A stretch of 64,000 nucleotides of DNA from Microcella alkalica (lineage in GTDB: Bacteria > Actinomycetota > Actinomycetes > Actinomycetales > Microbacteriaceae), in contig NZ_JACGWX010000003.1 in assembly GCF_014137945.1 (NCBI RefSeq), positions 1-64,000 of the forward strand, in the 5' to 3' direction. The translations under genes and the position numbers were made by a program. Every line of letters begins with the position of its first letter. The stretch's first letter is position 1. Shown here piece by piece: positions 27,310 through 41,419 of the stretch. Under the pieces are notes generated by a model. It ran no database searches. It worked only from the letters and a program-made list of their open reading frames with translations, and was not told where the DNA came from.

Positions 27310-27315
27310 TACCCT
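27310..27315 (+). promoter_or_regulatory. -10 box for leaderless start of the APH-fold gene
   Basis: TACCCT, six bases (GGGGGC), then ATG at 27322. Confidence 0.5.
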
Positions 27316-27321
27316 GGGGGC

Positions 27322-28476: not shown

Positions 28477-28737
28477 CTACTCGCCCGCGGCGATGCGGCG
28501 CGCGATGATCGTGCGGCCGCGCTGCACGGCGCGGACGAGCTCGGGCTGGCGGATGCCGAGCTCCTGCGAGACGTCGGAGTACGTGCGCTTCTCCAGCAGG
28601 ATGCCGCCGAGAGGCGCCCGCAGCTCGGGCGGCAGCTGCGAGATGCGCCCGACGAGCTCGTCGTAGCCGAGAGCGTCGACCGCCGAGTCGTCGATGTCGT
28701 GCTCGGGCGTCACGTCGAGGTCGAAGTCGTCTGCCAT
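28477..28737 (-). CDS. Small sigma-region-4-like HTH protein (paralogue A)
   Basis: An 86-residue protein. After an acidic N-terminus (MADDFDLDVTPEHD) comes a helical part LVGRISQLPPELRAPLGGIL and the helix-turn-helix RTYSDVSQELGIRQPELVRA, followed by a basic end. The pattern, with Leu-Pro-x-x-x-Arg-x-x-Leu ahead of an HTH, is that of sigma factor region 4. A paralogue with the same HTH lies at 29510-29791 on the other side of the puuD-like gene. Region 2 is absent, so it is not a sigma factor by itself. An unusual regulator or an anti-/co-sigma role is possible. Confidence 0.75.
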   Translation of the reverse strand: MADDFDLDVTPEHDIDDSAVDALGYDELVGRISQLPPELRAPLGGILLEKRTYSDVSQELGIRQPELVRAVQRGRTIIARRIAAGE

Positions 28738-28808
28738 GCGAGAAGCCTTTCGAAGCGAGGGAGGGCCGGGCGGCGCGACCCAGCCTAGAGCGCGCCCGTA
28801 CCCGGCGC

Positions 28809-29513
28809 TCAGGAGCTCGCGGCCTCGATCAGTGCCGAGAAGAGCCGCAGATCGTCAGGCGACTCCTCCGGGTGCCACTGCACGGCGACGCCGAACGAGA
28901 GCCCGTCGATGTCGACGGCCTGAATGATGCCCTCGTCGCCGCGGGCGCTCACCGTGAGCCCCGGCGCGAGGTGATCGATGGCCTGGTGGTGATAGCTCTT
29001 GACCGTGAGGCCCGCGCCGAGCATCCCGGCGATGCGCGTACCCGGCTCGGTGAGCACAGGGTTGTCGGCGAACGTCGCGTTGCCGTAGCTGTAGCGGTTC
29101 GAGCCGAGAACGTCGGGCAGGTGCTGCACGAGCGTGCCGCCGAGCGCCACGTTGAGCACCTGCAGGCCGCGGCAGATGCCGAGAACCGGCAGGTCGCGCG
29201 CGATCGCAGCGCGCACGAGCGCGATCTCCCAGGCGTCGCGGTCGGGGCGCGGGGCGTCGTTCTCAGGATGCGCGAGCTCGCCGTAGAGGGCGGCGTCGAC
29301 GTCTTTGCCCCCAGTGAGGATGAGCCCGTCGATGCCGTCGAGGGCGCGCTCGACCGCTGCGGGGTGAGGCGGCTGCGGGGGCAGGCCCGCGACCGCTCCC
29401 CCGGAGGCGATGACGCAGTCGGTGTAGACGCGAGGCAGCACAGAGGCTGGGCGATCCCACAGACCCATGACGGTCTGCTCCATGTAGGTCGTCAGACCGA
29501 TGAGTGCAGTCAC
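28809..29513 (-). CDS. Gamma-glutamyl-gamma-aminobutyrate hydrolase-like (PuuD, peptidase C26)
   Basis: A 234-residue class I glutamine-amidotransferase-fold hydrolase. The nucleophile is Cys114 in LGICRGLQVLNVALGG and the His/Glu pair is in VQWHPEESPD near residue 215. ILTGGKDVDAALYGE is typical of PuuD, which releases glutamate from gamma-glutamyl-GABA or related gamma-glutamyl amides. Its ATG overlaps the stop of the small HTH gene upstream by four bases, and the amine permease gene precedes that, so permease, HTH and hydrolase form one operon. With the PuuA-like synthetase at 32459 it supplies the two halves of a gamma-glutamylation route. Confidence 0.85.
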   Translation of the reverse strand: MTALIGLTTYMEQTVMGLWDRPASVLPRVYTDCVIASGGAVAGLPPQPPHPAAVERALDGIDGLILTGGKDVDAALYGELAHPENDAPRPDRDAWEIALVRAAIARDLPVLGICRGLQVLNVALGGTLVQHLPDVLGSNRYSYGNATFADNPVLTEPGTRIAGMLGAGLTVKSYHHQAIDHLAPGLTVSARGDEGIIQAVDIDGLSFGVAVQWHPEESPDDLRLFSALIEAASS

Positions 29514-29791
29514 GCGGCGCCGCTGCTCGACGAGAGTGCGTGGTCGGCTGCGATGAGGTGGCGCGCTCGGTGCACGGCGCGCACGAGCTCGGCCTGGCGG
29601 ATGCCGAGCTCCTGGCTCACGTCGCTGTATCTGCGGCGCTGCACGAGCACGCCGGTCGCGGCGGCCTGCAGATCGTGCGGCAGGCGGGCGATCGACGTCG
29701 CGAGGTCGGCGGCGTCGAGGCCGGCCACGAGCTGCTCGAGGCGGGCATCCTCATGATCGACCACATCGAGGTCGAAGTCGTCGTCACGCAT
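29510..29791 (-). CDS. Small sigma-region-4-like HTH protein (paralogue B)
   Basis: A 93-residue paralogue of the protein at 28477-28737. It shares the acidic start (MRDDDFDLDVVDHED), the LPxxLQ helix (SIARLPHDLQAAATGVL) and the near-identical HTH RRYSDVSQELGIRQAELVRA. The start has GGAGA five bases before ATG 29791. Its stop codon overlaps the start of the puuD-like gene. Two copies flanking one hydrolase gene suggest local duplication. The proteins may sense or control the amine regulon, which is an inference from position. Confidence 0.75.
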   Translation of the reverse strand: MRDDDFDLDVVDHEDARLEQLVAGLDAADLATSIARLPHDLQAAATGVLVQRRRYSDVSQELGIRQAELVRAVHRARHLIAADHALSSSSGAA

Positions 29792-29806
29792 GGGTCTCTC
29801 CATTTC

Positions 29807-29829
29807 GGTGGTGGTGGTGGTGGGGGGGG
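29807..29829 (+). repeat. (TGG)n/G-run low-complexity tract
   Basis: Five GGT units followed by a run of eight G on the plus strand. On the transcribed (minus) sense this is a C-rich (CCA)n leader between the permease and the small HTH gene. The remaining part of 29792-29877 is a GC-rich spacer. Confidence 0.75.
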
Positions 29830-29877
29830 CGCGGCCCGGGAGCGGCGGGATCAGCGGCCGCCCCCGAGCGAGACGAG

Positions 29878-31398
29878 TCAGCTCGCGAAGTCGCGCACGA
29901 GCTGCTCGTTCTCCTTCTTGTTGATGAGGGCGACGACGTAGCCGACGACCAGGGCGATGAACGGCAAGAGCACGAGGAACCAGCCGAGCGCGTTGAGCTG
30001 GAAGGCGCTCTCGGGCAGCGACGGGTCGACGCCCTCGGGAACCGTGCCGGCCAGCAGGTTGAAGCGCGACATCACGAGGTAGAGGCCGAGCGTCAGGAGG
30101 ATCGCCGAGAGCGCCGGAGCGATCACGGTCTTCCACATCGAGCCGCCGCCGACCTTGCGGAAGAAGACGATGATCGCGATCGAGACCAGGATCTCGACGA
30201 CGATGACCGACATCGCGGTGATCGAGCTCATCCAGAAGAACAGATTCGCGACCGGGTCGAGGCCCGCGACGGCGAACACGATCATGACGATCGCGGCGAG
30301 CACCGAGGTGATGACGACGCCGCCGACGGGCGCCCCCGCGCGGTTCGTCGTGGCCGCGCGCTGCGGTAGCACGCCGCCGCGTCCGAGAGCGAAGAAGTAG
30401 CGCGCCGCGGCATTCTGGAAGGCCAGGAGGCCCGCGAAGAGGCTCGTGATGACGAGCACCGTCATGATCGTGACGAGCCAGGGGCCGACGTACTGCTCGG
30501 TGAGGCTGAAGAGCACGCCCGCGGGGTTCACGAGCGGGTTGCCGTCGGCGTCGGCCGAGCGCGTGACGACCTCGTCGATGATCGAGCCAGCACCCATGCC
30601 CGTCACCATGGCGAACGAGACGATCGCGAACAGGATGCTGATGGTCGAGATCGCGATGTAGGTCGCGAGCGGCACGGTGCGCTTGGGGTCCTTCGACTCC
30701 TCGCCGTAGATGGCCGTGGCCTCGAAGCCTATGAAGCTCGCGAGGGCGAAGGCGAGGGCGATGCCGGCGCCGCCCGCGAAGCCACCGGCGAAGATGTTCT
30801 CGGGGCTGAACGAGGCGACGAGGTTCCAGCCCTCGGGGCCCCCGTCGGCGAGCATCGCCACGGCCGCGACGAGCAGCGACAGCATCTCGAGCACGAGCAG
30901 CACGCCGAGCACCTTGGCGCCGATGTCGACGGTGAGTAGCGAGAGACCCGTCACGAGAGCCCAGGCGATGAACGACCAGAGGTACCAGGGCAGGTCGACG
31001 CCGAGCTCGGCCATCGTGCCGGCGACGAGGCCGCCGAAGAAGCCGAAGATGGCGAGCTGGATCGTGACGTAGGTGAGGACCGAGACGAAGGCCGAGGCGA
31101 CGCCGGCGTTCACGCCGAGACCCTTGCCCACGTACGCGAAGAACGCGCCCGAGTTGGTGACGCGCTGGCTCATCGCGGCGTAGCCGACGCTGAACAGCAG
31201 CAGCGTCAGGCCGACGACGAGGTACGCGCCGGGGGTTCCTGCGCCGTTGCCGACGAGCATCGCGACGGGCACCGCGCCCGTGATGCCGACGAGCGGGGCT
31301 GATGCGGCGACGACGAAGAAGACGACGCCGATGACGCCGAGCCGCCCGGCACGGAGCGACGAGCGCTCCGCCTGGGCCGTGGGGGTGGAACGGGTCAT
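29878..31398 (-). CDS. APC-family amino acid/amine permease
   Basis: A 506-residue transporter with about 12 membrane spans. The N-terminal span carries the APC hallmark VVAASAPLVGITGAVP (unwound helix 1 with small residues), and GFEATAIYGEESKDPKRTVP at helix 6 and following loop is the second family signature. It is related to amino acid, polyamine and gamma-aminobutyrate permeases such as PuuP. GAGGAG 8 bases before ATG fixes the start. It heads the operon permease-HTH-PuuD-like(-HTH), and its promoter region holds an ATCGTT-N8-AACGAC inverted repeat, so it is probably the uptake system of the catabolic island. The exact amine or amino acid is unknown. Confidence 0.87.
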   Translation of the reverse strand: MTRSTPTAQAERSSLRAGRLGVIGVVFFVVAASAPLVGITGAVPVAMLVGNGAGTPGAYLVVGLTLLLFSVGYAAMSQRVTNSGAFFAYVGKGLGVNAGVASAFVSVLTYVTIQLAIFGFFGGLVAGTMAELGVDLPWYLWSFIAWALVTGLSLLTVDIGAKVLGVLLVLEMLSLLVAAVAMLADGGPEGWNLVASFSPENIFAGGFAGGAGIALAFALASFIGFEATAIYGEESKDPKRTVPLATYIAISTISILFAIVSFAMVTGMGAGSIIDEVVTRSADADGNPLVNPAGVLFSLTEQYVGPWLVTIMTVLVITSLFAGLLAFQNAAARYFFALGRGGVLPQRAATTNRAGAPVGGVVITSVLAAIVMIVFAVAGLDPVANLFFWMSSITAMSVIVVEILVSIAIIVFFRKVGGGSMWKTVIAPALSAILLTLGLYLVMSRFNLLAGTVPEGVDPSLPESAFQLNALGWFLVLLPFIALVVGYVVALINKKENEQLVRDFAS

Positions 31399-31426
31399 GA
31401 CCGGTACTCCTCATTGAGCAGGGGTG

Positions 31427-31446
31427 ATCGTTTGGGCCTAAACGAC
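31427..31446. promoter_or_regulatory. Putative operator, permease promoter
   Basis: ATCGTT-TGGGCCTA-AACGAC, an imperfect inverted repeat with 6-8-6 geometry, 28 bases before the permease ATG. Read on the other strand its core (TAGGCCCA) is nearly the core of the site at 33848. Confidence 0.6.
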
Positions 31447-31507
31447 TGGTTCACAGATTGGCCCTCGGCCTCGCTCGCGTCAAGCAGTTCGCCGGGCGAA
31501 TTTGCCT

Positions 31508-31527
31508 ATCGTTAGTTTACGAACGAT
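31508..31527. promoter_or_regulatory. Putative operator, acetoacetate-decarboxylase-like promoter
   Basis: ATCGTT-AGTTTACG-AACGAT, perfect half-sites, 6-8-6. It covers the -35 and spacer region of the promoter whose -10 is TAGGCT at 31532-31537, an arrangement that suits a repressor. Confidence 0.65.
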
Positions 31528-31531
31528 TCGG

Positions 31532-31537
31532 TAGGCT
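31532..31537 (+). promoter_or_regulatory. -10 box for leaderless start of the acetoacetate-decarboxylase-like gene
   Basis: TAGGCT, seven bases (GGTGACC), then ATG at 31545. Confidence 0.6.
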
Positions 31538-31544
31538 GGTGACC

Positions 31545-32357
31545 ATGTCAGACCTCCACGGCTTCATGGCCCCCCAGACCCCGTCGGGCGCGAGCGCGAT
31601 CATCCCCGACATGCCCTGGTACTACTCGGGCACCCTGCTCACCGCCGAGTACCGCACCGACCCCGAGAAGGTCGCGGCCCTCCTCCCCGAGGGCCTCGAG
31701 CTCGCCGACGACGACCCGGGAGCAGTGGCGCTCATCTGGGCCGACTGGCAGTCGTGCTCGGGCAGCGGCGCCGAGCTGCTCGACCCGCAGCGCTCGCAGT
31801 ATCTCGAGACCTTCGCCGTCGTGCGCGTCAAGCACGAGGGCCAGACCTACACGCGCTGCGTCGCCATCTGGGTCACGAAGGACTTCGCGATCGCCCGCGG
31901 CTGGTTCCAGGGCTACCCCAAGAAGCTCGGCTCGATGGCCGTCACGCGCGTCATGAACGTCGGCCGCGCCGCCCCGCGCCTCGCGCCCGGTGCCAAGATC
32001 GGCGCCTCGCTCGCGGCCTACGACCACCGCCTCGCCTCGCTCGTCGTCACGCTCGAGGCCGAGAGCGAGAGCAACGGCTTCGTGAACGGCCACCCCATGC
32101 TGCATTCGCGGTGGATGCCCTCGATCACGCCCGGCGCCGGCAACAGCCTCGACCAGCTCATCACCATGAGCACGACCGACGCCGAGCTCGGCGCCACCTG
32201 GCGAGGCGACTTCGAGCTCGAGCTGCACGACTCTCCGTGGGACGAGCTCGCGTCGATCCTGCCGATGCGCGAGAAGATCGGCGCGTTCTACCGCGAGGTG
32301 GGCGTGACCTTCAATGGGGGAAAACTCGTGAAGGACGCGTCTAACACCTCGATCTAG
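31545..32357 (+). CDS. Acetoacetate-decarboxylase-fold protein
   Basis: A 270-residue protein of the acetoacetate decarboxylase family. The Lys-Lys pair that forms and tunes the Schiff base is retained in FQGYPKKLGSMAVTR near residue 128, and the surrounding blocks (PWYYSGTLLTAEYRTD, TRCVAIWVTKDFAIARGW, GHPMLHSRWMPSI) fit the family. Related proteins include decarboxylases and aldolase-dehydratases acting on oxo acids, so in this cluster it could process an oxo-acid fragment of the pathway. It is monocistronic, faces away from the permease gene, and its promoter is covered by one of the shared inverted repeats. The reaction is not established. Confidence 0.82.
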   Translation: MSDLHGFMAPQTPSGASAIIPDMPWYYSGTLLTAEYRTDPEKVAALLPEGLELADDDPGAVALIWADWQSCSGSGAELLDPQRSQYLETFAVVRVKHEGQTYTRCVAIWVTKDFAIARGWFQGYPKKLGSMAVTRVMNVGRAAPRLAPGAKIGASLAAYDHRLASLVVTLEAESESNGFVNGHPMLHSRWMPSITPGAGNSLDQLITMSTTDAELGATWRGDFELELHDSPWDELASILPMREKIGAFYREVGVTFNGGKLVKDASNTSI

Positions 32358-32371
32358 ACCAATGCATGGAA

Positions 32372-32410
32372 CGAGAGGGGCCCGGGAGCATCGCTCCCGG
32401 GCCCCTCTCG
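32372..32410. terminator. Strong bidirectional hairpin terminator
   Basis: An 18-bp perfect stem (CGAGAGGGGCCCGGGAGC and its complement) with a three-base loop between the convergent decarboxylase-like and glutamine-synthetase-like genes. It should stop transcription from both sides. Confidence 0.9.
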
Positions 32411-32458
32411 TCTGCTCCTTCGGAGGTCCAAGAAGCTGTGTTTGCTGACTTCCTCGAC

Positions 32459-33808
32459 CTACAGGTCGAGGAAGTACTCCTTCACTTCCCACTCGGTGAC
32501 GTCGCGCGTCGAGGGGTCGTCGACCGCCTCGGCGTAGCGCTCGAGCTCGTCGCGCTTCATGACCTCGAAGACGTCGACGAGCGGGCCGCCGAGGATCTCG
32601 ATGAGGGCGGTATCGGCGCGCAGAGCATCCAGGGCATCGCCCAGCGTCATCGGGAGGACGACCTGCGACTCATCCTCGTACGAGTAGCCGACAGCGGGCG
32701 GCGGCGCGACGAGCATGCGGCGGATGCCGTCGAGGCCGGCTGCCAGGATCGCAGCGGTCATGAGGTACGGGTTCGCCGCGCCGTCGCCGAGGCGCATCTC
32801 GAGCCGCGTACCGCCGCCGCGCTCCGGCGGGATGCGCACCATCGCGCTGCGGTTGTCGTGGCCCCAGTTGGCGCGGTACGGCGCGAGCGTGTCGGGCCCG
32901 AGCCGCTTGAACGCGTTCACCGTGGGGTTGCAGAGGGCGGTGAGCGCCGGCCCGTGCTCGACGATGCCGGCGATCATGTGCAGCGCGATCTCGCTGAGCT
33001 CGTGACCCGAGTGCATGAGGTTCTCGCCGTCGACATCGACGACCGAGACGTGCAGGTGGAACCCGCTGCCGCCCTCGTCGCTCCACGGCTTGCCCGAGAA
33101 CGTCGCCGCCTGGCCGACCCTTGCGATGAGGTCTTTCACGGCGGCCTTGAGCATGAAGATGCGGTCGCACGCGTCGAGCGATTCGCCGTGCCAGATGTTG
33201 ACCTCGTACTGGCTCGGGCTGAACTCGTGATTGCCCGCGAAGACGCCGATTCGCAGCTGGTCGAGCATGCGCAGCAGGTGCAGGAAGGTGCCCTTGGGGT
33301 CGACGGTCGCGCCGCTCGAATACACGCGACCGGGCTGCGTGAGCGCACGGCGGTACGAGCCGTCGGAGTTGCGATCGGCGATGTAGAACTCGAGCTCAGG
33401 GCCGATGACCGGCTGCAGGCCGAGGGCCGCGTACTCGCCGACGACGCGCTCGAGGAGCGTGCGGGGCGCGAACTCGTTGGGCGTCATGTCGGGGTTCGCG
33501 GCACCCGCGACGACGTAGGCGACGCCGGGCTCCCAGGGCAGGGCGCGCCAGCTCTCGGGCACGATCTGGCTGATGAAGTCGGAGAGACCGTCGCTCAGGA
33601 TGCTGCCGCCGTCGAGCACGCCGCCCTGGGTCGTGGTGATCCAGACGCCCTGCGAGAATGCCGGGCCGCCGTGGCTGATCTTGTCGAGCTGGCTGACGAG
33701 CAGGTCTTTCGAGCGGACGGTGCCGATGACGTCGGCGTAGATGACGCGGAGCACATCGATGCCCGCTTCGGCGAGCTCGCTCTGCAGATTGACGAGACTC
33801 CGACTCAT
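32459..33808 (-). CDS. Glutamine-synthetase-family gamma-glutamylamine ligase (PuuA-like)
   Basis: A 449-residue GS-fold ligase. Active-site blocks: VIGPELEFYI (metal Glu), FAGNHEFSPSQYEVNI, GSGFHLHVSVVD (ATP/metal His), NPTVNAFKRLGP (glutamate Arg region nearby) and GTRLEMRLGDGAANPYL. The N-terminus and the glutamate-binding loop resemble class III/PuuA-type enzymes that join glutamate to an amine with ATP, rather than housekeeping GlnA; the adenylylation loop is not obvious. Its neighbours (amine permease, PuuD-like hydrolase, P450) support gamma-glutamylation of an amine. It is divergent from the amidotransferase-like gene across a 98-bp region with a shared operator. AAGGAG before ATG supports the start. 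Confidence 0.86.
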   Translation of the reverse strand: MSRSLVNLQSELAEAGIDVLRVIYADVIGTVRSKDLLVSQLDKISHGGPAFSQGVWITTTQGGVLDGGSILSDGLSDFISQIVPESWRALPWEPGVAYVVAGAANPDMTPNEFAPRTLLERVVGEYAALGLQPVIGPELEFYIADRNSDGSYRRALTQPGRVYSSGATVDPKGTFLHLLRMLDQLRIGVFAGNHEFSPSQYEVNIWHGESLDACDRIFMLKAAVKDLIARVGQAATFSGKPWSDEGGSGFHLHVSVVDVDGENLMHSGHELSEIALHMIAGIVEHGPALTALCNPTVNAFKRLGPDTLAPYRANWGHDNRSAMVRIPPERGGGTRLEMRLGDGAANPYLMTAAILAAGLDGIRRMLVAPPPAVGYSYEDESQVVLPMTLGDALDALRADTALIEILGGPLVDVFEVMKRDELERYAEAVDDPSTRDVTEWEVKEYFLDL

Positions 33809-33847
33809 GTGCGACTCCTTCGTGGCACTTCAGTGATCCTGCGGTGG

Positions 33848-33867
33848 ATCGTTAGGCCTCAAACGAT
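33848..33867. promoter_or_regulatory. Putative operator between the ligase and amidotransferase genes
   Basis: ATCGTTAGGCCTCAAACGAT: perfect 6-base half-sites, 8-base spacer, midway in the divergent region. Its right edge overlaps a TACAGT -10-like box (33867-33872) reading toward the amidotransferase gene, so one site could control both directions. Confidence 0.7.
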
Positions 33868-33906
33868 ACAGTAAGTAGCGACCACCGTCGAAGAGGAGGG
33901 TGCCCC

Positions 33907-34623
33907 GTGCGAGCACTGTTTGTCCAGCATGACCACGTCAGCCCGCTCGGGCCGGTCGGCGAGCGCTTCGCGCAGCATGGCTTCGAGATCGACACCTTCC
34001 TCGTCGTGCCGGAGGAGAGTTTCCACTCCCCCGACATCGCCGTCGACTTCCCCGACCTCTCCCACTACGACGTCGTCATCCCTCTCGGCGCCCCCTGGGG
34101 CGCCTGGGACGACGCGTGCATCGGCACGTGGCTGCGCGCCGAGCTCGACTGGCTCGGCGACGCGGTGCGCGGCGGGATGCCCGTGCTCGGCATCTGCTTC
34201 GGCGGCCAGCTCGTCGCCCGCGCGCTCGGCGGCTCGGTCGCGCCAGGACCGAGGGGCGAGATCGGCTGGACCGCCATCTGGAGCGAGGACCCGTCGCTCG
34301 TCGGGCAGGGGCCGTGGTTCCAGTTCCACTACGACCAGTGGCAGGTGCCGCCGAGAGCGGTCGAGATCGCGCGCAGCCCGGTCGCGTCGCAGGCCTTCAC
34401 GATTGAGCGCACGCTCGCGGTGCAGTTCCACCCCGAGCTCGATGCGGCAGGCCTCAAGGGCTGGCTCGATTGGGGCGGCGCGTCGAAGGTGCGGGAGTAC
34501 GGGCAGGATCCGGAGGTCATGCTCGCGCAGACCCGCGCCGAGCAGGAGGCCGCCCGCGAGCGCACCTTCGCGCTCGTCGACGCGTTCCTGAGCCGGGTGG
34601 CCGGGCTCATCCCCGCGGCCTGA
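33907..34623 (+). CDS. Class I glutamine amidotransferase-like protein
   Basis: A 238-residue GATase1-fold protein. The nucleophile is Cys97 in VLGICFGGQLVARALGG and the His-Glu pair lies in VQFHPELDAAG near residue 180, so the triad is complete. WFQFHYDQWQVPP is characteristic of the GMP-synthase-like/GuaA-type single-domain group. It could hydrolyse a gamma-glutamyl amide, as proposed for the amidotransferase-like partner of the gamma-glutamylanilide synthase in aniline-degrading bacteria. It is divergent from the PuuA-like ligase and shares its operator, which supports a joint job. It begins at GTG 33907 behind AGAGGAGGG. Confidence 0.83.
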   Translation: MRALFVQHDHVSPLGPVGERFAQHGFEIDTFLVVPEESFHSPDIAVDFPDLSHYDVVIPLGAPWGAWDDACIGTWLRAELDWLGDAVRGGMPVLGICFGGQLVARALGGSVAPGPRGEIGWTAIWSEDPSLVGQGPWFQFHYDQWQVPPRAVEIARSPVASQAFTIERTLAVQFHPELDAAGLKGWLDWGGASKVREYGQDPEVMLAQTRAEQEAARERTFALVDAFLSRVAGLIPAA

Positions 34624-34662
34624 GCGCAGCATCCGCCGTCGGCAGGCGCCCCGACAGCACGA

Positions 34663-34692
34663 CGCGCCGGGGCCCTGGAATGCCCCGGCGCG
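34663..34692. terminator. Bidirectional hairpin between amidotransferase-like and P450 genes
   Basis: CGCGCCGGGG, ten-base loop, CCCCGGCGCG. The two genes converge on it. Confidence 0.75.
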
Positions 34693-34705
34693 ACGTGGGA
34701 TCGGA

Positions 34706-35947
34706 TCAAACGACGCGGACGGGCATCCGCTTGATGCCGTGCACGAAGTTGCTGCGCAGGTAGTCGATGTCGCCCGTGCGCTCGAGGACGACGTCGCGCG
34801 AGAGCAGGTCTTCGAACATGATGCGCAGCTCGATGCGCGCGAGCGCGTTGCCGAGGCACATGTGCGGGCCACCGCGGCCGAACGACATGTGCTCGTTCGG
34901 GTTGCGGGTCACGTCGAAGCGGTACGGATCGTCGAAGACCGAGTCGTCGCGGTTGCCCGAGGCGAACCACGTGACGACCTTGTCGCCCTCCTTAATCTGC
35001 GTGTCGGAGAACTCGACGTCCTTCGTCGCCGTGCGGCGGAAGTGGTAGACGGGCGAGGCGAAGCGCAGGAACTCCTCGATCGCCCACGGGATGAGCGAGG
35101 GGTCGTTCTTGAGCAGCGCCATCTGCTCGGGGTTGTTGAGCAGGTTGCTCATCGAGTGGGTGATCGTGTGGCGCGTGGTCTCGTTGCCGGCCACGACGAG
35201 CAGGAGGAAGTTGGTGTTGAACTCGTCCTCACTGAGCCTGTTGCCGTCGTTCGGAACGCCGTCGGAAAGCAGCGTCACGAGATCGGCGCCGCCCTTGCCG
35301 GTGCGCTCGGCCTTGAGGTGCCGGCCGTACTCGTAGACCTCGACGGCCGCGGGCGAACGGAACGGCACGTGCTTGTACTTCTCGCTGTCGACCGAGTCGA
35401 CGAGCACGTCGGCGTGCTCGGGGTCGGTGTTGCCGACCATGCGGTTGCCCCAGTCGATGAGCTGGCCGGTGTCGCTGTCCGGCACCCCGAGCAGTCGAGC
35501 GAGCACGCGGATCGGGAAGTCGGCGCTGACCTCCTCGACGAAGTCGAACTCCTTCTTCGCGAGCGCGTCGTCGAGGGTCTTGGCGGTGATGCCGCGCAGG
35601 AAGGTCTCGTACTTCGCGACCGCCTGAGGCGTGAACTCGCCCTGCAGCATGCGGCGCAGCGCGCGGTGGCGCAGGCCGTCCATCTCGAGCAGCGAGCGGC
35701 GCTGCTCCTGCAGCTCGGGGTCGACCTCCTCGAGGTTGGTGAACTTCGTCGAGGTGAAGGTCTCGGTGTCGCGCAGCACCCGCACGATCTCGTGGTACCG
35801 CGTCACCGACCAGAAACCGTGGTTCGGCGACTCCTCACTCGAGAAGTGGAGACCGGGCCTGCGCCGGAGCTCCTCGAACACCTGCCACGGCGCGCCGTGG
35901 GCGAACAGATCGAGGTCAGCGAGGGTGAGGGCTGTCGTCGTCGACAT
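34706..35947 (-). CDS. Cytochrome P450
   Basis: A 413-residue soluble bacterial P450. The I-helix oxygen-binding motif is AGNETTRH (from residue 253), the K-helix ExxR is EEFLR (about 291-295) and the heme loop is FGRGGPHMCLGNALAR with Cys364 as the axial ligand. The phrase NETTRHTITHSM and the heme loop resemble the CYP111/CYP125/CYP142-type group that oxidises terpenoid, steroid or alkyl groups, but the substrate cannot be read. It needs a ferredoxin and reductase, and both are encoded at 39995-41419. It is divergent from the MarR gene; a 24-bp perfect palindrome lies 26 bases before its ATG. Confidence 0.92.
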   Translation of the reverse strand: MSTTTALTLADLDLFAHGAPWQVFEELRRRPGLHFSSEESPNHGFWSVTRYHEIVRVLRDTETFTSTKFTNLEEVDPELQEQRRSLLEMDGLRHRALRRMLQGEFTPQAVAKYETFLRGITAKTLDDALAKKEFDFVEEVSADFPIRVLARLLGVPDSDTGQLIDWGNRMVGNTDPEHADVLVDSVDSEKYKHVPFRSPAAVEVYEYGRHLKAERTGKGGADLVTLLSDGVPNDGNRLSEDEFNTNFLLLVVAGNETTRHTITHSMSNLLNNPEQMALLKNDPSLIPWAIEEFLRFASPVYHFRRTATKDVEFSDTQIKEGDKVVTWFASGNRDDSVFDDPYRFDVTRNPNEHMSFGRGGPHMCLGNALARIELRIMFEDLLSRDVVLERTGDIDYLRSNFVHGIKRMPVRVV

Positions 35948-35973
35948 GGAGCGCCTGCTTTCGTCGGAGGCCG

Positions 35974-35997
35974 AGATTGTTAGGATCCTAACAATCT
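35974..35997. promoter_or_regulatory. 24-bp perfect palindrome, P450 promoter operator
   Basis: The half-site is AGATTGTTAGGA, exactly repeated in reverse complement. The inner part reads ATTGTT-AGGATCCT-AACAAT, the same 6-8-6 layout as the other sites of the island. It lies between the P450 and MarR starts. Confidence 0.75.
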
Positions 35998-36063
35998 TTA
36001 CCGGACCGCGTCGAGTCCTCTTTCTCCCGGCGCGCCGCGGGCGATCGTGAGCGTTCAGCATGC

Positions 36064-36080
36064 TTCGGGCCCGAATGAGG
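36064..36080. promoter_or_regulatory. Possible autoregulatory site ahead of the marR-like gene
   Basis: TTCGGGCCCGAATGAGG contains the perfect 12-bp palindrome TTCGGGCCCGAA. The segment CCCGAATGA recurs in the operator of the dehydrogenase operon at 36663-36682. Confidence 0.45.
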
Positions 36081-36105
36081 TTGGATGCTCTGCAGGAGGA
36101 CTTCG

Positions 36106-36603
36106 ATGCCCAGCCCCCACACGCTCGCCGAGACGGAGCAGCAGGTCGCCCAGAAGCTCGGCGGCCTGACGATCGACTTCGAGGCCATGGCCGTCGCGTC
36201 GAATCTGTTCCGCGCCGCGAATGCGACGCGCAACTACCTCGAGCGCACCGTGCTCGCGCCGCACGGACTGTCGTGGACCGCGTTCGTCGTGCTCTGGGTC
36301 ACGTGGATCTGGGAGCCGATCGAGACGCGCCAAATCGCCGAGGAGGGTGGGTTCTCGAAGGCGACGCTCACCGGGGTGCTCGGCACGCTCGAGGGCAAGG
36401 GCCTGCTGCAGCGAGAGCGCAGCACGAGCGATGGACGACTCGTGCTCGTCTCGATGACGCAAGAGGGTTGCGACGTCATGCAGCGACTCTTCCCCGAGTT
36501 CAACCGTCACGAGCAGCAGGTCGCGCACGCCGCCGGCGATCAGGCCGAGCAGCTGGCCGAGCTGCTGCGGCGCATCACCGCTGACATCGAGTCGCGCCGC
36601 TGA
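36106..36603 (+). CDS. MarR-family transcriptional regulator
   Basis: A 165-residue winged-helix regulator. The recognition part is TRQIAEEGGFSKATLTGVLG, followed by the wing GLLQRERSTSDGRLVLVSMT, in which the DxR of the wing is present. Flanking helices form the dimer interface. The start ATG 36106 has AGGAGG six bases before; an earlier in-frame ATG at 36085 has no signal. It sits between the P450 gene and the dehydrogenase operon, as HpaR-type regulators do in homoprotocatechuate clusters, and is the best candidate in the window for the protein that reads the shared inverted repeats. An aromatic acid or its CoA/semialdehyde product is a plausible effector. Confidence 0.87.
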   Translation: MPSPHTLAETEQQVAQKLGGLTIDFEAMAVASNLFRAANATRNYLERTVLAPHGLSWTAFVVLWVTWIWEPIETRQIAEEGGFSKATLTGVLGTLEGKGLLQRERSTSDGRLVLVSMTQEGCDVMQRLFPEFNRHEQQVAHAAGDQAEQLAELLRRITADIESRR

Positions 36604-36649
36604 CCCGCGGGTCTCTCGAAGCGTCATTCCGCACGCTCGGTTCTTGGGC

Positions 36650-36655
36650 TACTAT
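36650..36655 (+). promoter_or_regulatory. -10 box of the meta-cleavage operon
   Basis: TACTAT, with the operator beginning eight bases downstream, at the expected transcription start. Confidence 0.5.
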
Positions 36656-36662
36656 TGTCAGA

Positions 36663-36682
36663 GTCGTTCGTACCCGAATGAC
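36663..36682. promoter_or_regulatory. Putative operator of the meta-cleavage operon
   Basis: GTCGTT-CGTACCCG-AATGAC: imperfect inverted repeat, 6-8-6, placed just past the -10 box, where a bound protein would block transcription. Confidence 0.6.
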
Positions 36683-36712
36683 TTACCACCGTCACTGCAA
36701 GGGAGCAGCCAC

Positions 36713-38176
36713 GTGCACCAGGTGCAACTCGCCGGCCTGACCGTCGACACCCGCCACGCGATCGGCGGCGAGCGCATCGCCTCGGCCGAGACCTTCGACA
36801 GCGTCTCGCCCATCGACGGCTCGGTTCTCGCGCACATCTCTCGCGGCGGTGCCGCTGAGGTGGATGCGGCGGTGCAGGCCGCTCGCGCGGCCTTCCCCGC
36901 CTGGCGCGACCTCGGGCCGGATGGGCGCGGAGAGCTCCTCCACCGCCTCGCCGACCTCGTGGAGGCGAACCTCGAGCAGCTCGCGAACCTCGAGACCCTC
37001 GACAACGGGTCGCTCCTGCGCAGTCACCGCCGCGGGGTCATGCCGCGCGTCGCCATGAACATCCGCTTCTTCGCCGACTGGGCGATCAACAGACTGCACC
37101 ACGAGGTCTGGCAGACCCGCGGCCACGACAACAACGTCTCGTGGGATCCCTCCGGCGTCGCGGCGCTCATCACGCCGTGGAACGCTCCGCTCATGCTCGC
37201 GACCTGGAAGATCGGCCCGGCGCTCGCGGCCGGCGACACCGTGGTGCTCAAGCCCGCGGAGTGGACGCCGCTGAGTGCGAGCGTGTTCGCCGACCTCGCG
37301 AACGAAGCGGGCATCCCGCCCGGGGTCGTCAACGTCGTGCAGGGCTTCGGCGCCGAGGCGGGGGCCGCGCTCGTCGCCCACCCCGGCATCGCGCGCATCT
37401 CGTTCACCGGCTCGGTGCCGACCGCAAAGGCGATCGCGCGCTCGGCGGCCGACAACCTCACGCCCGTGAGCTTCGAGCTCGGCGGCAAGAGCCCGCTCAT
37501 CGTCACCGACGACGCCGATCTCGACCTCGCCGTCGACCTCGCCGTCGAGCAGTACGACAACGCCGGCCAGGTTTGCCTCTCGGGCACGCGACTGCTCGTC
37601 CACGAGGGCGTCGCCGATCGATTCGCCGAGGCGTTCGCCGCGCGCGTCGCCGCGCTGCGTCAGGGCGATCCCCGCGAGGACGAGACGCAGATCGGCCCGC
37701 AGATCCATCGCGTGCACCTCGAGCGGATCGACGGCTTCGTCCAGCGCGCCCGCGAGGGAGGCGCCCGCATCGCCTTCGGCGGCGGCCCCAACGACGAGCT
37801 CGGCGGCCTCTACTACCGGCCGACGCTCGTGGTCGACGCGGCGCCGGGCAGCGAGATCCTGACGGCGGAGGTCTTCGGACCCGTCCTCGCGATGCAGACC
37901 TTCGCGACCGACGAGGAGGCGGTCGAGCTCGCCAACGGCACCGAGTTCGGCCTCGCCGCGGTCGTCGTGTGCGGCGACCGCGCCCGGGCCGAACGGCTCA
38001 CCAAGAACCTCGTCGCCGGCACCATCTGGGTGAACTGCTTCTTCGTCCGTGACCTCGCGGCACCCTTCGGAGGCAGCAAGAAGTCGGGCATCGGCCGCGA
38101 GGGCGGCACGTGGTCGTTCGACTTCTACGCCGACGTCAAGAACACCGTCTACGCACCGACAGGTTGGAAGGAATAA
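36713..38176 (+). CDS. hpaE: Aldehyde dehydrogenase, 5-carboxymethyl-2-hydroxymuconate semialdehyde dehydrogenase-like
   Basis: A 487-residue NAD-dependent aldehyde dehydrogenase. Catalytic residues: Asn157 (ITPWNAPLML), Glu255 (FELGGKSP) and Cys288 (AGQVCLSGTRLL). The Rossmann motif is FTGSVPTAK. The C-terminal block with VNCFFVRDLAAPFGGSKKSG and DFYADVKNTVYAP is characteristic of the HpaE branch, which oxidises the semialdehyde formed by extradiol cleavage of homoprotocatechuate. It starts at GTG 36713 (GGGAG 7 bases before) and leads the operon; the dioxygenase gene begins three bases after its stop. A 2-hydroxymuconate semialdehyde substrate is also possible. Confidence 0.85.
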   Translation: MHQVQLAGLTVDTRHAIGGERIASAETFDSVSPIDGSVLAHISRGGAAEVDAAVQAARAAFPAWRDLGPDGRGELLHRLADLVEANLEQLANLETLDNGSLLRSHRRGVMPRVAMNIRFFADWAINRLHHEVWQTRGHDNNVSWDPSGVAALITPWNAPLMLATWKIGPALAAGDTVVLKPAEWTPLSASVFADLANEAGIPPGVVNVVQGFGAEAGAALVAHPGIARISFTGSVPTAKAIARSAADNLTPVSFELGGKSPLIVTDDADLDLAVDLAVEQYDNAGQVCLSGTRLLVHEGVADRFAEAFAARVAALRQGDPREDETQIGPQIHRVHLERIDGFVQRAREGGARIAFGGGPNDELGGLYYRPTLVVDAAPGSEILTAEVFGPVLAMQTFATDEEAVELANGTEFGLAAVVVCGDRARAERLTKNLVAGTIWVNCFFVRDLAAPFGGSKKSGIGREGGTWSFDFYADVKNTVYAPTGWKE

Positions 38177-38178
38177 TC

Positions 38179-39090
38179 ATGGGAAGAGTCGTCGGAGCCG
38201 CCATTCTGGCTCACGTGCCCACCATCATGCTCCCGCAGGATGTTCGGTACGACCTCAACGGAGGGCACGAGATCAGCCTCGTGCCCGGCCTCAAGCGCCT
38301 GCGCGAGGAGGTCATGGAGACCCTCGACTACGACACCGTCGTCGTGCTCGACTCGCACTGGGCGACCACCGTCGAGTTCGTGATCACCGCCCAGGCCGAG
38401 CGCAGCGGGCTCTTCACGAGCGAGGAGCTGCCGCGCGGCATGTCGCAAATCCCCTACGCGTTCAAGGGCGACCCCAAGCTCGCGAACCTCACCGCCGGGT
38501 ACGACGAGAAGAACGGGACGTGGATCACGCCCATCAGCGACCCGCACCTGCCGATCTTCTACGCCACCGTCAACCTCTGGCACTACCTCGGCCGCGGTCT
38601 CGACAAGCGCTGGGTCAGCATGTCGGTCTGCCAGACAGCCGAGACGGAGGACTTCCTCCGCGCCGGCCGCGCGCTCGGCGAGGCCATCCATGACAGCGAC
38701 CGCAAGGTGCTGCTGCTCGCGTCGGGTGCGCTTTCGCACACGTTCTACAAGCTGCGCGACCTGCGCCAGCACGAGGCGAGCGACCCCAGCCACATCTACA
38801 GCCCGGAGGCGCGCGAGGCCGACCTCGAGCGCATCGAGTGGATGAAGTCCGGCGATCACGCGCGGATCCTCGACACGATGGACGAGTTCAAGAAGTTCAA
38901 GCCCGAGGCGAACTTCAGCCACTGGCTCACGATGGCCGGCGCGACGGGCGAGGGCGCGAACACCGCGAAGGGCGTCATGTACTCGGAGTACGAGAACTCG
39001 ATCGGCACGGGCCAGGTGCACGTGTACTTCCCCGAGCCCGATGGAGGCTTCCCGCAGCCGCGGGACCTCGTCCTGTCGCGGGAGCGCTGA
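38179..39090 (+). CDS. Class III extradiol ring-cleavage dioxygenase (LigB/HpaD family)
   Basis: A 303-residue non-haem iron(II) dioxygenase. The class III fold is visible from ILAHVPTIMLPQDV (first iron His), VVVLDSHWATT (second His region), ISDPHLPIFYATVNL and LLASGALSHTFYKLRDL (catalytic His), with SHWLTMAGATGEGA near the end. In other bacteria this family cleaves 3,4-dihydroxyphenylacetate or related catechols next to the diol (meta cleavage). Placement between HpaE-like and HpaG-like genes supports a homoprotocatechuate-type catechol. AAGGA before ATG supports the start; the gap to the next gene is two bases. Confidence 0.85.
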   Translation: MGRVVGAAILAHVPTIMLPQDVRYDLNGGHEISLVPGLKRLREEVMETLDYDTVVVLDSHWATTVEFVITAQAERSGLFTSEELPRGMSQIPYAFKGDPKLANLTAGYDEKNGTWITPISDPHLPIFYATVNLWHYLGRGLDKRWVSMSVCQTAETEDFLRAGRALGEAIHDSDRKVLLLASGALSHTFYKLRDLRQHEASDPSHIYSPEAREADLERIEWMKSGDHARILDTMDEFKKFKPEANFSHWLTMAGATGEGANTAKGVMYSEYENSIGTGQVHVYFPEPDGGFPQPRDLVLSRER

Positions 39091-39092
39091 GC

Positions 39093-39998
39093 GTGAGCGA
39101 GGCGACGAGAACGACGACCGAGTACCGCCGCATCCTGCTCGGGGGCGCGCCCGTCCGGGTCCGCCGCGAGGGCGAGGAGCTCGTCGCCCCCGACGGGCGC
39201 CGGGTCGCGATCGCCGAGGCCGTGCACCTCGCGCCGAGCATCCCGACCAAGATCATCGCCGTGCACCTCAACTACGCCAGCCGAACCGAGGAGTTCATGA
39301 CGCGGCTCCCCGACGCGCCGACGTACTTCCACAAGCCGATCACCGCGCTCAACAGCCACGACGGCGACATCGTGCGACCCGTCGGCTGCAAGTGGCTCAA
39401 CTACGAGGGCGAGATCGTCATCATCATCGGGCGCACGTGCCGCAACGTGTCGCCGGCCGAGGCGGGCGACTACATCGCCGGCTACAGCGTCGGCAACGAC
39501 TACGGGCTGCACGACTTCCGCGACACGGATGCCGGCTCGATGCTGCGCGTGAAGGGCTCCGACACCCTCGGGCCCGTGGGCCCCGGCATCGTGGAGGGCT
39601 GGGACTTCCGCGGCAAGATGATCCGCACCTACGTCAACGGCGAGCTCAAGCAGGAGGACTCGACCGACAACATGGAGTGGGACATGCACTACCTCGTCGC
39701 CGACCTCGCCCGCACGATCACCCTCGAGCCCGGCGACATGATCTTCTCCGGCACGCCGGCGAACTCGCGCCCGGTCGTGCCGGGCGACGTCGTCGAGGTC
39801 GAGGTCGAGGGCCTCGGCCGGCTGCGCAACCGCATCGTCGAGGGCCCCGAGCCGATCCGCACCGATGTGGGCGCACAGCCGACCGAGAGCGAGGAGGTCG
39901 TCTCTACCGCGCTCGGCGGAGACTGGGAGTTCCGCGGCATCCGCACCCCCTCGAAAGACCTCTACCCGTCCACCGTCCAGGAGGAGGAAGACGCATGA
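39093..39998 (+). CDS. Fumarylacetoacetate-hydrolase-fold enzyme, HpaG-like isomerase/decarboxylase
   Basis: A 301-residue FAH-fold protein. Metal-binding acidic residues are in NYEGEIVIIIGRT and the block SVGNDYGLHDFRDTD, and substrate loops in FHKPITALNSHDGDI and GDMIFSGTPANSRPV. In the homoprotocatechuate pathway HpaG decarboxylates and isomerises the acid made by HpaE, and catechol meta-cleavage uses related FAH-fold hydratases and decarboxylases. It begins at GTG 39093 two bases after the dioxygenase stop, and its stop overlaps the ferredoxin ATG. The pathway steps expected after it (HpaF, HpaH, HpaI equivalents) are not in the window. Confidence 0.85.
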   Translation: MSEATRTTTEYRRILLGGAPVRVRREGEELVAPDGRRVAIAEAVHLAPSIPTKIIAVHLNYASRTEEFMTRLPDAPTYFHKPITALNSHDGDIVRPVGCKWLNYEGEIVIIIGRTCRNVSPAEAGDYIAGYSVGNDYGLHDFRDTDAGSMLRVKGSDTLGPVGPGIVEGWDFRGKMIRTYVNGELKQEDSTDNMEWDMHYLVADLARTITLEPGDMIFSGTPANSRPVVPGDVVEVEVEGLGRLRNRIVEGPEPIRTDVGAQPTESEEVVSTALGGDWEFRGIRTPSKDLYPSTVQEEEDA

Positions 39999-40189
39999 TC
40001 AAGATCGACGTCGACATGAACAAGTGCCAGCACTACGGCCAGTGCGTGTTCGAGGCGCCCGAGGTGTTCCAGCTGAACGCCGACGACAAGCTCGAGTACC
40101 AGGCCCAGGCGCCGGACGAGATGCTCGCCGACCTCGAGGCCGCGGCCGACGTGTGCCCGATGCAGGCGATCACGATCACGCAGGCCTGA
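39995..40189 (+). CDS. Small ferredoxin (3Fe-4S type, P450 partner)
   Basis: A 64-residue ferredoxin. Its three cluster cysteines are in MNKCQHYGQCVFEAP (Cys-x5-Cys, one of the four canonical positions taken by His/Tyr) and ADVCPMQAI. This pattern is typical of single-cluster ferredoxins that pass electrons to actinobacterial P450s. It overlaps the FAH gene by four bases and precedes the reductase by six, so the electron-transfer pair is built into the meta-cleavage operon although the P450 itself is encoded 4 kb away in a divergent unit. Confidence 0.9.
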   Translation: MIKIDVDMNKCQHYGQCVFEAPEVFQLNADDKLEYQAQAPDEMLADLEAAADVCPMQAITITQA

Positions 40190-40195
40190 ATCTCG

Positions 40196-41419
40196 ATGAC
40201 GGACGCGCCGCTCCTGATCGTCGGAGCCTCGATGGCAGGCCTCCGCACCGCCGAGGGTGCGCGTCGCGCCGGCTACGCGGGCCCCATCGAGTTCCTCGGC
40301 GCCGAGGCGCACGCGCCGTACAACCGGCCGCCGCTGTCGAAGGAGCTCCTGCAGACCGAGGGGCACGGGCACGACGAGGTCGCGTTCCCCATCCGCTCGG
40401 CGCTCGAGCAGGGCGTCACGTGGACGCTCGGACGCGCGGCCGCCTCGCTCGACATCTCGCGGCGGGTGGTGATCGACGAGGCCGGTGACGAGCATCCGTA
40501 CCGAGCGCTCGCGATCGCGACCGGGCTGCGCCCCAAGCCGCTTCCCGTCGACGGGCACGCGCTGACGGGCATCCACGTTCTTCGCACGCTCGACGACGCC
40601 GTCGGGTTGCGCACCTCTCTGCGCCCGGGCGCGAACGTCGTCATCCTCGGCTCGGGCTTCGTCGGCTGCGAGATCGCGGCGACCGCGGCGAAGAACGGAT
40701 GCGCGGTGTCGGTCGTCACGCAGAGCGCGGTGCCGCTCGAGCGGGCCCTCGGCCCGGAGCTCGGGGGCGAGGTGCGGCGACGCCACGAGGCGCACGGCGT
40801 GCGGTTCTTCCCGCGCGACGGGCTCTTCGGGCTCGTCGGCGACCCCTGTGTCGAGCGCGTCATCCTGTCGAGCGGCGTCATGCTCGAGTGCGACGTGCTC
40901 GTCGTGGCGATCGGGTCGGACCCGAACACCGAGTGGCTCGCAGGCTCGGGCCTCGATGTGAGCGACGGCGTGCTCGTGGACGGCGGGCTGCGCGCCCTGA
41001 CCGCGGAGGGTGCCGTCGTGCCCGACGTCTTCGCGGTCGGCGACGTCGCCCGGTACCCCAACCCGCTGTTCGACGGCGTGGCGCGTCGCGTCGAGCACTG
41101 GAACCTGCCGACCGAGACGGGCAAGCGCGCCGGCCAGCTGATCGCCGCGCACCTCGCGGGCGAGAACTGCGAACCGCTCGCGGCCGCCGGGTTCGCGCCC
41201 CTTCCGTCGTTCTGGAGCGACCAGTACGACATGCACCTGCTCGCGTTCGGCATGACCTACCTCGCCGACCGCCGAGAGCTCGTCGCCGGCGCGCTCGACG
41301 ACGAATGCGTGGTCGAGTACCACCGCGGCGACGCCCTCGTGGGCGTGTGCGGCATCGGGATGCGCTCGCTCGTGCAGAGCTACCGCTCGCGCTTCAGCGT
41401 GCCGACCGCCGCGGTCTAG
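40196..41419 (+). CDS. FAD-dependent ferredoxin reductase (rhodocoxin-reductase type)
   Basis: A 407-residue NAD(P)H:ferredoxin reductase with two Rossmann folds. FAD is bound through LLIVGASMAGLRTAEG near the N-terminus and VFAVGDVARYPNP near residue 280; NAD(P)H binds through VVILGSGFVGCEIAATAAK near residue 145. NRPPLSKELL is a hallmark of the family that serves P450s and Rieske oxygenases. Together with the preceding ferredoxin it forms the expected electron chain for the P450 at 34706. Its TAG overlaps the stop of the convergent adnB-like gene by two bases, marking the right end of the catabolic island. Confidence 0.9.
   Translation: MTDAPLLIVGASMAGLRTAEGARRAGYAGPIEFLGAEAHAPYNRPPLSKELLQTEGHGHDEVAFPIRSALEQGVTWTLGRAAASLDISRRVVIDEAGDEHPYRALAIATGLRPKPLPVDGHALTGIHVLRTLDDAVGLRTSLRPGANVVILGSGFVGCEIAATAAKNGCAVSVVTQSAVPLERALGPELGGEVRRRHEAHGVRFFPRDGLFGLVGDPCVERVILSSGVMLECDVLVVAIGSDPNTEWLAGSGLDVSDGVLVDGGLRALTAEGAVVPDVFAVGDVARYPNPLFDGVARRVEHWNLPTETGKRAGQLIAAHLAGENCEPLAAAGFAPLPSFWSDQYDMHLLAFGMTYLADRRELVAGALDDECVVEYHRGDALVGVCGIGMRSLVQSYRSRFSVPTAAV

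Follow-up and report, generated by a model that had tools for sequence, protein, structure and literature searches.

What would a bacterium do with a locus that encodes a putative gamma-glutamyl-amine ligase, a cytochrome P450 and the enzymes of aromatic meta-cleavage side by side? Such a locus, a cluster of 13 genes spanning 28.8-41.4 kb, is found in the stretch of DNA analyzed here (the window), which is the first 64 kb of contig NZ_JACGWX010000003.1 (C3) of Microcella alkalica, whose genome (G000, assembly GCF_014137945.1) comprises 2.74 Mb on 13 contigs. Our analyses indicate that the cluster is very likely a real and widespread unit and that its substrate is probably an arylethylamine. 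We propose, with a confidence just short of an even chance, that this arylethylamine, most likely tyramine, is catabolised by a tag-through route to pyruvate, 4-aminobutyrate (GABA) and glutamate. We infer the substrate, the order of the steps, the retention of the gamma-glutamyl tag and the reaction of each enzyme.

Conservation of the cluster as a unit

An earlier note on this DNA, made from the sequence alone, had joined the genes for glutamylation, P450 oxidation and meta-cleavage into one unit, and the related loci (labelled L below, and genomes G) bear this out. When named genomes were scanned with a profile of the dioxygenase, 454 relatives were confirmed and the best 80 loci were kept. 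These include loci of Microcella, Rhodoluna, Aurantimicrobium, Salinibacterium, Nanopelagicales and Blastococcus, and the dioxygenases of Microcella and Yonghaparkia share 95-96% identity with that of the window. Cluster genes were counted by tblastn (at least 50 bits) at the 45 loci with at least 9.9 kb of upstream sequence and the 60 loci with at least 2.9 kb of downstream sequence, which are near relatives because they were chosen by dioxygenase similarity. Upstream, genes for the ligase, the P450 and the HpaE-like dehydrogenase were found at all 45 loci, followed by those for the MarR-family regulator (44), the second amidotransferase-fold protein GAT2 (43), the acetoacetate decarboxylase (ADC)-fold protein (43), the APC-family permease (41) and the PuuD-like protein (29). 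Downstream, the FAH-family and reductase genes were found at all 60 loci and the ferredoxin gene at 59. The Nanopelagicales loci lie on two short contigs, which end before the ligase and P450 genes, and the ADC-fold gene was not found at the Blastococcus locus. Furthermore, the distance matrices of seven of the genes correlate with one another (Mantel r 0.43-0.91, 44 loci, 21 pairs, none of 500 permutations reaching the observed value for any pair), as expected from co-inheritance. The possibility that homologous gene groups always occur separately is thus contradicted, since the same gene set recurs in conserved order among relatives.

Chance juxtaposition of the cluster genes is rejected on the strength of this synteny. 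Description as a genome-specific island was also rejected as a full account, because the right-hand neighbour beside the reductase gene, which we take to be AdnA, is shared by L028-L030, L032, L035, L037, L038, L040 and L041. Alternatively, two unrelated modules might adjoin, one for gamma-glutamyl metabolism of ethanolamine or polyamines and one for meta-cleavage of aromatic acids, and the arrangement of the window genes in several transcription units with opposite directions would be consistent with this. However, such an arrangement is very improbable given that the ligase, P450 and HpaE-like genes accompany the dioxygenase at every counted locus, that the gene distances co-vary, and that ligase and dioxygenase genes adjoin also in differently ordered clusters from other families of the order. 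Those clusters were identified when 347 genomes of the order were searched for the dioxygenase, with matches in 7 genomes including that of the window. Of the 6 others, five have the ligase gene close to a dioxygenase copy, and in the sixth (L019) a 30-residue piece of it lies at the border of the stretch; the P450 gene is near in 4, and gene order varies. The flanking genes of L020, L022 and L026 were annotated and include no further pathway gene that we could place. Of 398 genomes drawn evenly from the family of the window (hereafter the family genomes), 51 have the dioxygenase at E<=1e-60, in 12 of 85 genera; genomes of 1.2-1.8 Mb, not all of which are complete, are among these carriers.

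Proposed pathway

In the homoprotocatechuate route, ring cleavage is followed by semialdehyde oxidation, decarboxylation, hydration and a retro-aldol step, yielding pyruvate and succinic semialdehyde. If the CH2-COOH side chain is swapped for CH2-CH2-NH-gamma-Glu, the same series of reactions would yield pyruvate and gamma-glutamyl-4-aminobutyraldehyde, which is an intermediate of the Puu pathway. Such a cleavage product would account for the presence of Hpa-like and Puu-like genes in one cluster, and its further conversion would require a PuuC-like aldehyde dehydrogenase (ALDH).

The amine would be imported by the permease, or formed from an aromatic amino acid by a decarboxylase, and the glutamine synthetase (GS)-like ligase would convert it to the gamma-glutamyl amide. 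The P450, with the ferredoxin and the reductase, would form a catechol by ring hydroxylation, the LigB-fold dioxygenase would open the ring in the homoprotocatechuate manner, the HpaE-like enzyme would oxidize the semialdehyde, and the FAH-family protein would carry out the decarboxylation. The MppR-like ADC-fold protein would then hydrate the product and split the chain into pyruvate and gamma-glutamyl-4-aminobutyraldehyde. A PuuC-like dehydrogenase, encoded beside the cluster in some relatives and not identified in G000, would form gamma-glutamyl-GABA, from which a PuuD-type hydrolase (the PuuD-like protein or GAT2) would release GABA and glutamate. GAT2 may be the main hydrolase, because its gene is more constant (43 of 45 loci) than that of the PuuD-like protein (29 of 45).

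The retained tag would prevent the amine from cyclising with the ring-cleavage semialdehyde; that the tag is kept through ring cleavage has, in our judgement, somewhat less than an even chance. We regard as tentative a fusion of the Hpa-type and Puu pathways from arylethylamine to pyruvate and GABA in which the MppR-like ADC-fold protein replaces both hydratase and aldolase. Phenethylamine, dopamine and methoxy-tyramine are alternatives to tyramine as the substrate. Gamma-glutamyltyramine is known from work on methanofuran and methylofuran, in cofactor biosynthesis.

The earlier note had an aromatic amine glutamylated, hydroxylated, released and then ring-cleaved. That genes for glutamylation, P450 oxidation and meta-cleavage belong together is supported by our results, whereas release before cleavage and models like that for aniline fit less well. 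An arylethylamine that keeps its tag fits better, because several relatives have genes for a PuuC-type ALDH and for amino-acid decarboxylases linked to the cluster, which itself includes a PuuD-like gene. If correct, the proposed pathway would explain how aromatic biogenic amines could be exploited by actinobacteria whose genomes are small, give a chemical reason for tagging the amine ahead of ring opening, and assign a hydratase-aldolase role to an ADC-fold enzyme. The gene set is readily recognisable in genomes and metagenomes.

Linked aldehyde dehydrogenases and decarboxylases

The PuuC-like step was predicted before the families of the flanking ALDHs were read; extra ALDH-like matches were already visible by then, so that the kind of enzyme, and not its presence, was foreseen. 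An ALDH fragment upstream of the permease gene in L094 has PuuC as its best model (464 bits), as does the full-length homologue in L105 (523 bits, below the cut-off of 850). When the L105 protein was used as the query (E<=1e-165, four first-look ALDH candidates scored per genome), PuuC-type ALDHs were found in 12 of the 398 family genomes, 11 of which carry the dioxygenase (51 of 398 overall); the exception, G587, has the least similar ALDH (54%). Because only four candidates were scored per genome, absences are soft throughout. The co-occurrence gave a Fisher value of 6e-10, or 2e-7 without G384 (the query genome), G681 and G537 (in which the ALDH had been seen earlier), both values being uncorrected for kinship, which inflates linkage and co-occurrence figures. 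The two genes are on one contig in 9 genomes and are 8.2-12.3 kb apart in 8 of these, five of which were new; in the ninth, G419, each is close to a different end of a contig of about 1.6 Mb, and they are near each other only if it is circular. They are on separate contigs in G712 and G522. No PuuB flavin oxidase is present among the annotated genes of the cluster, the rest of the genome not having been searched for one.

Another ALDH gene follows the cluster in L071, L075, L082 and L088. The L082 protein passes the cut-off for aminobutyraldehyde dehydrogenase (627 vs. 615), and those of the three other loci are 67-95% identical to it. This bears on a benzylamine such as vanillylamine as the substrate, which would follow the same route via gamma-glutamyl-3-aminopropanal to beta-alanine with the enzyme logic unchanged, the P450 possibly acting in O-demethylation. 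However, one linked ALDH thus passes a cut-off for the aminobutyraldehyde enzyme, and the common aromatic amino acids do not decarboxylate to benzylamines, so that we consider a benzylamine quite improbable.

Linked decarboxylases were not foreseen by the pathway prediction. Group II pyridoxal phosphate-dependent decarboxylases (PF00282) are encoded in the flanks of 18 of the 80 loci, two query loci included. Their position varies: in Salinibacterium and L094 the gene is between those for GAT2 and the P450, in L044 and L056 it is about 5 kb downstream, and elsewhere it is just downstream of the reductase gene or of the second ALDH gene. At E<=1e-30, PF00282 was matched in 50 of the 51 family genomes with the dioxygenase and 202 of the 347 without it; in the genus of the window, these numbers are 8 of 8 and 0 of 2. 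Among the matches listed, 12 of 14 decarboxylase/dioxygenase pairs on the same contig are 3.7-8.6 kb apart, 5 of these 12 being already known from the locus scan, and the remaining two (G434 and G709) are more than 200 kb apart; kinship inflates these figures as well. A tree of the decarboxylases (32 rows, 7 duplicates left out) has two separated clades, each with cluster-linked members. The linkage label changes 5 times on this tree, at least 4 changes being forced by well supported branches, with a long-branch warning; the label itself is soft, because the "unlinked" class takes in copies located on other contigs where assemblies are fragmented, as well as one copy 26 kb away. An HK motif followed by W is present in 31 of the 32 sequences, the exception being L142. 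Both query decarboxylases have 4obu, which we take to be a tryptophan decarboxylase of a gut bacterium, as their best match in PDB, and DOPA decarboxylase (7xin) ranks sixth and second.

Family resemblance and conserved residues

Among the matches listed (the best 25 of 43 for the ALDH and of 32 for the reductase), no cluster protein exceeded a curated NCBIfam cut-off, including those of the Hpa equivalogs and of PuuA and PuuD (Table 1). Names such as HpaE and PuuA therefore denote family resemblances only. Residues were scored as conserved when identical in at least 98% of the aligned rows, the window's protein included, and we take those listed in Table 1 to have catalytic-type roles. The ligase conserves many core residues of GS by this measure in 62 rows, whereas leucine (62 of 62 rows) takes the place of the GYEAP glutamate and there is no FDGSS motif; both are presumably ammonium-site features of GS. 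A kept core combined with lost ammonium-site residues is as expected for an organic-amine ligase of the GoaS class. GS-like ligases of organic amines are placed in this class (glutamyl organic amide synthetase) by the NpaA1 paper (PMC11335346).

The P450 (45 of 45 loci), the ferredoxin (59 of 60) and the reductase (60 of 60) are encoded together, the three conserved cysteines of the ferredoxin fit a 3Fe-4S protein, and the three proteins may act as a three-component system. The best PDB match of the P450 is CYP125MRCA, the CYP125 entries scoring only about 228-230 bits; nothing was found on CYP125MRCA or 4obu in the open-access literature. A second P450 gene is present in some related clusters (L100, L101 and L103 at about 4.6-5.8 kb, L106 at 986 and L107 at 3056), with identities from 45-47% (L106 and L107) down to a distant 25-26%, which suggests two successive oxidations or another substrate. 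The P450 might instead attack the tagged amine at its alkyl side chain or at an O- or N-methyl group, the ring entering as a catechol or methoxyphenol such as dopamine or 3-methoxytyramine. The closest solved relatives, of the CYP125/CYP124 type, are consistent with this, as is L018, which has the ligase, LigB and HpaE-like genes and no P450 gene in the stretch; L019 is similar, its ligase being the edge fragment. At L018 and L019, which retain the dioxygenase, HpaE-like and FAH-family genes, the substrate may already be a catechol. However, the second P450 genes fit successive ring hydroxylations at least equally well, and we consider action on a side chain or methyl group improbable.

The best PDB match of the dioxygenase is a 3,4-dihydroxyphenylacetate 2,3-dioxygenase (Table 1), and beta subunits of 2-aminophenol 1,6-dioxygenase are matched with 39 bits. 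The latter match would suit a route of the aniline type, in which glutamylation of an arylamine precedes its hydroxylation by the P450, and the tag is removed before meta-cleavage of the free catechol or aminophenol; a GS-like ligase indeed starts the breakdown of 1-naphthylamine and aniline, according to PMC11335346. Nevertheless, the match to the 3,4-dihydroxyphenylacetate enzyme is stronger, there is no Rieske oxygenase among the cluster genes, and such a route leaves the linked decarboxylases, the PuuC-type dehydrogenase and the PuuD-like gene unexplained. We therefore consider it unlikely.

Candidates for the hydratase and aldolase steps

An HpaI aldolase (TIGR02311) was found in none of 11 cluster genomes at E<=0.001, no control genome exceeding its cut-off either, and the TIGR03217 aldolase exceeded its cut-off in none of the 11 cluster genomes and none of 14 controls. 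In G352, the FAH-family gene of the cluster is the sole match to PF01557. The absence of TIGR02311 and the single PF01557 gene of G352 leave the ADC-fold protein as a candidate hydratase-aldolase. By sequence, its closest solved structures are MppR (4jm3) and then 6eej/4zbo. MppR is described as an aldolase in PMC7820114, which proposes ADC-fold MppR-like proteins for the last (aldolase) step when S. solfataricus degrades phenol by meta-cleavage.

Several findings weigh against the proposed pathway. As to the late steps, G000 has one protein of the HpcH/HpaI superfamily over the Pfam cut-off (PF03328, 100 bits), so that an HpcH/HpaI-type aldolase may act there, and the 10 other cluster genomes have 2-5 PF01557 genes each, so that a separate hydratase is possible in them. 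No PuuC-type gene was found in G000 at E<=1e-165 (4 of 17 candidates scored), and no PuuD-like gene upstream in 16 of the 45 loci. Decarboxylase genes were not found in the 64-kb window or in L018-L027, the stronger decarboxylase of G000 is on another contig (C2; 59% identical to a cluster-linked one of Aurantimicrobium), and PF00282 is common among genomes without the dioxygenase. Furthermore, the best NCBIfam model of the decarboxylases is L-2,4-diaminobutyrate decarboxylase, far below its cut-off, and glutamate decarboxylase 2 is the third PDB match of the L082 protein, so that they may act on non-aromatic amino acids. With respect to gene content, the P450 gene is missing from the fetched stretches of L018 and L019, the HpaE-like, FAH-family and ADC-fold genes are missing from L024-L026, and second dioxygenase copies (L021-L023) lack any other cluster gene. 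These second copies possibly have a different role. They adjoin ORFs (open reading frames) of 1333-1370 aa, and that of L022 is also beside an EmrB-like transporter gene.

Gene layout and surroundings

Annotation was based on ORFs and on Pfam/NCBIfam scans of the cluster proteins. Every gene named in the earlier note is present, and a small ORF at 29510-29791 is additional (Table 1, with approximate gene starts). The MarR, HpaE-like, LigB, FAH, ferredoxin and reductase genes form a run in one direction, with gaps of +2, -10, -4 and +6 bp from the HpaE-like gene to the reductase gene, and the remaining cluster genes are on both strands. The G+C content is 67-70% across five 2-kb bins (30-40 kb), compared with 72-74% in most adjacent bins.

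Table 1. Genes of the cluster in the window, with family scores and residues conserved among the aligned rows
Feature	Position	Strand	Family matches, conserved residues and occurrence
PuuD-like class I amidotransferase (Peptidase_C26), candidate gamma-glutamyl-GABA or gamma-glutamylamide hydrolase	28809..29513	-	PF07722 197 bits; NCBIfam gamma-Glu-GABA hydrolase (PuuD) 91.6 bits, cut-off 266; C114/H214/E216 (28 rows)
Small ORF, about 93 aa, 4-bp overlap with PuuD-like gene	29510..29791	-	no Pfam/NCBIfam match; homologues at some related loci
APC-family permease, candidate amine importer	29878..31398	-	PF00324, PF13520; 41/45 loci
ADC-fold protein, MppR-like, candidate hydratase-aldolase	31545..32357	+	PF06314; TIGR04460 (MppR) 185.6 bits, cut-off 380; K124-K125 (54/54 rows)
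GS-like ligase, proposed gamma-glutamyl-amine ligase	32459..33808	-	PF00120 291 bits; PuuA 239.8 bits, cut-off 650; Leu308 at GYEAP Glu position; no FDGSS
GAT2, second class I glutamine-amidotransferase-fold hydrolase	33907..34623	+	PF00117; PRK07053 108 bits, cut-off 250; C97/H175/E177 (62 rows); 43/45 loci
Cytochrome P450, proposed aromatic ring hydroxylase	34706..35950	-	PF00067 97.7 bits; best PDB CYP125MRCA 8vxi 371 bits; C365 (67 rows); 45/45 loci
MarR-family regulator	36085..36603	+	PF01047; best NCBIfam HpaR 48 bits, cut-off 121
HpaE-like semialdehyde dehydrogenase	36707..38176 (start approximate)	+	TIGR02299 (HpaE) 522 bits, cut-off 638
Class III extradiol dioxygenase, LigB fold, HpaD-like	38179..39090	+	PF02900; TIGR02298 (HpaD_Fe) 125 bits, cut-off 316; best PDB 8iq8 78 bits; H12/H60/H187/E243/E258 (90 rows)
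Single-domain FAH-family protein, candidate decarboxylase/isomerase	39081..39998 (start approximate)	+	PF01557; TIGR02303 (HpaG C-terminal) 193.5 bits, cut-off 276
Small ferredoxin, proposed P450 partner	39995..40189	+	PF13459; C11, C17, C54 (74 rows)
Ferredoxin reductase	40196..41419	+	PF07992, PF14759; 60/60 loci with downstream sequence

A small protein of about 93 aa accompanies some of the related clusters in shifting positions, several of its genes (e.g., L064, L066 and L058 near 13.2 kb) being just downstream of the reductase gene. A zinc alcohol dehydrogenase gene follows the cluster in L043, L044, L056 and L061 (13.2-14.3 kb), the L043 copy being Ahr-like and below the cut-off, and this enzyme might act on an aldehyde of the pathway. 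In Salinibacterium loci, a carbon-nitrogen hydrolase gene is located directly after the reductase gene (L093, 13254-14066); the window encodes a homologue with 63% identity at 13828-14667 (- strand), about 14 kb before the cluster. An APH-fold phosphotransferase with a Ser/Pro/Ala-rich tail is encoded at 27310-28458 (+ strand) and scores 48 bits against macrolide phosphotransferases (cut-off 550).

Comparison with known systems

The cluster looks like a variant of known glutamylation and meta-cleavage pathways that is apparently undescribed. The earlier note knew of no described pathway with this gene set, and we likewise found no description of the combination in the open-access literature; subscription journals were mostly outside this search, so one may exist.

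The mycobacterial mor/pip clusters for cyclic amines, as we understand them, resemble it in having P450, ferredoxin and reductase genes beside a GS-like gene; in contrast to it, they have no extradiol dioxygenase or other meta-cleavage genes. The Tdn, Atd and Npa clusters for aniline and 1-naphthylamine share a GS-like ligase, an aromatic amine substrate and ring oxidation, and the class I amidotransferases TdnT/AtdA2 of Tdn/Atd provide a further likeness. However, the cluster described here has a P450 in place of the dioxygenase system, no Rieske dioxygenase subunits being found among its genes, as well as a class III HpaD-like dioxygenase, and decarboxylase and PuuC-type genes are linked to it in relatives. 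The phenol meta-cleavage system of Saccharolobus solfataricus (Sso1221/1222) has MppR-like ADC-fold proteins, proposed there for the aldolase step, in common with it; this system is archaeal and acts on phenol, and the passages of its description consulted here do not mention glutamylation (PMC7820114).

The closest parallels are drawn with two pathways. The Hpa/Hpc meta-cleavage of homoprotocatechuate shares HpaD-, HpaE- and HpaG-like enzymes and a MarR-family regulator that is weakly HpaR-like, whereas the cluster proteins score below the HpaD, HpaE, HpaG and HpaR cut-offs, the FAH-family protein is single-domain, TIGR02311 is unmatched in 11 of 11 genomes, and the cluster adds an ADC-fold protein and an amine ligase. 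The Puu pathway for putrescine (PuuA, PuuB, PuuC and PuuD), as we understand it, likewise begins with gamma-glutamylation of an amine by a ligase and has the same predicted end, with an ALDH and a gamma-glutamyl-GABA hydrolase. The ligase, the L105 ALDH and the PuuD-like protein, however, score below the cut-offs of PuuA, PuuC and PuuD, and the predicted substrate of the cluster has an aromatic ring, with the P450 and ring cleavage in place of PuuB.

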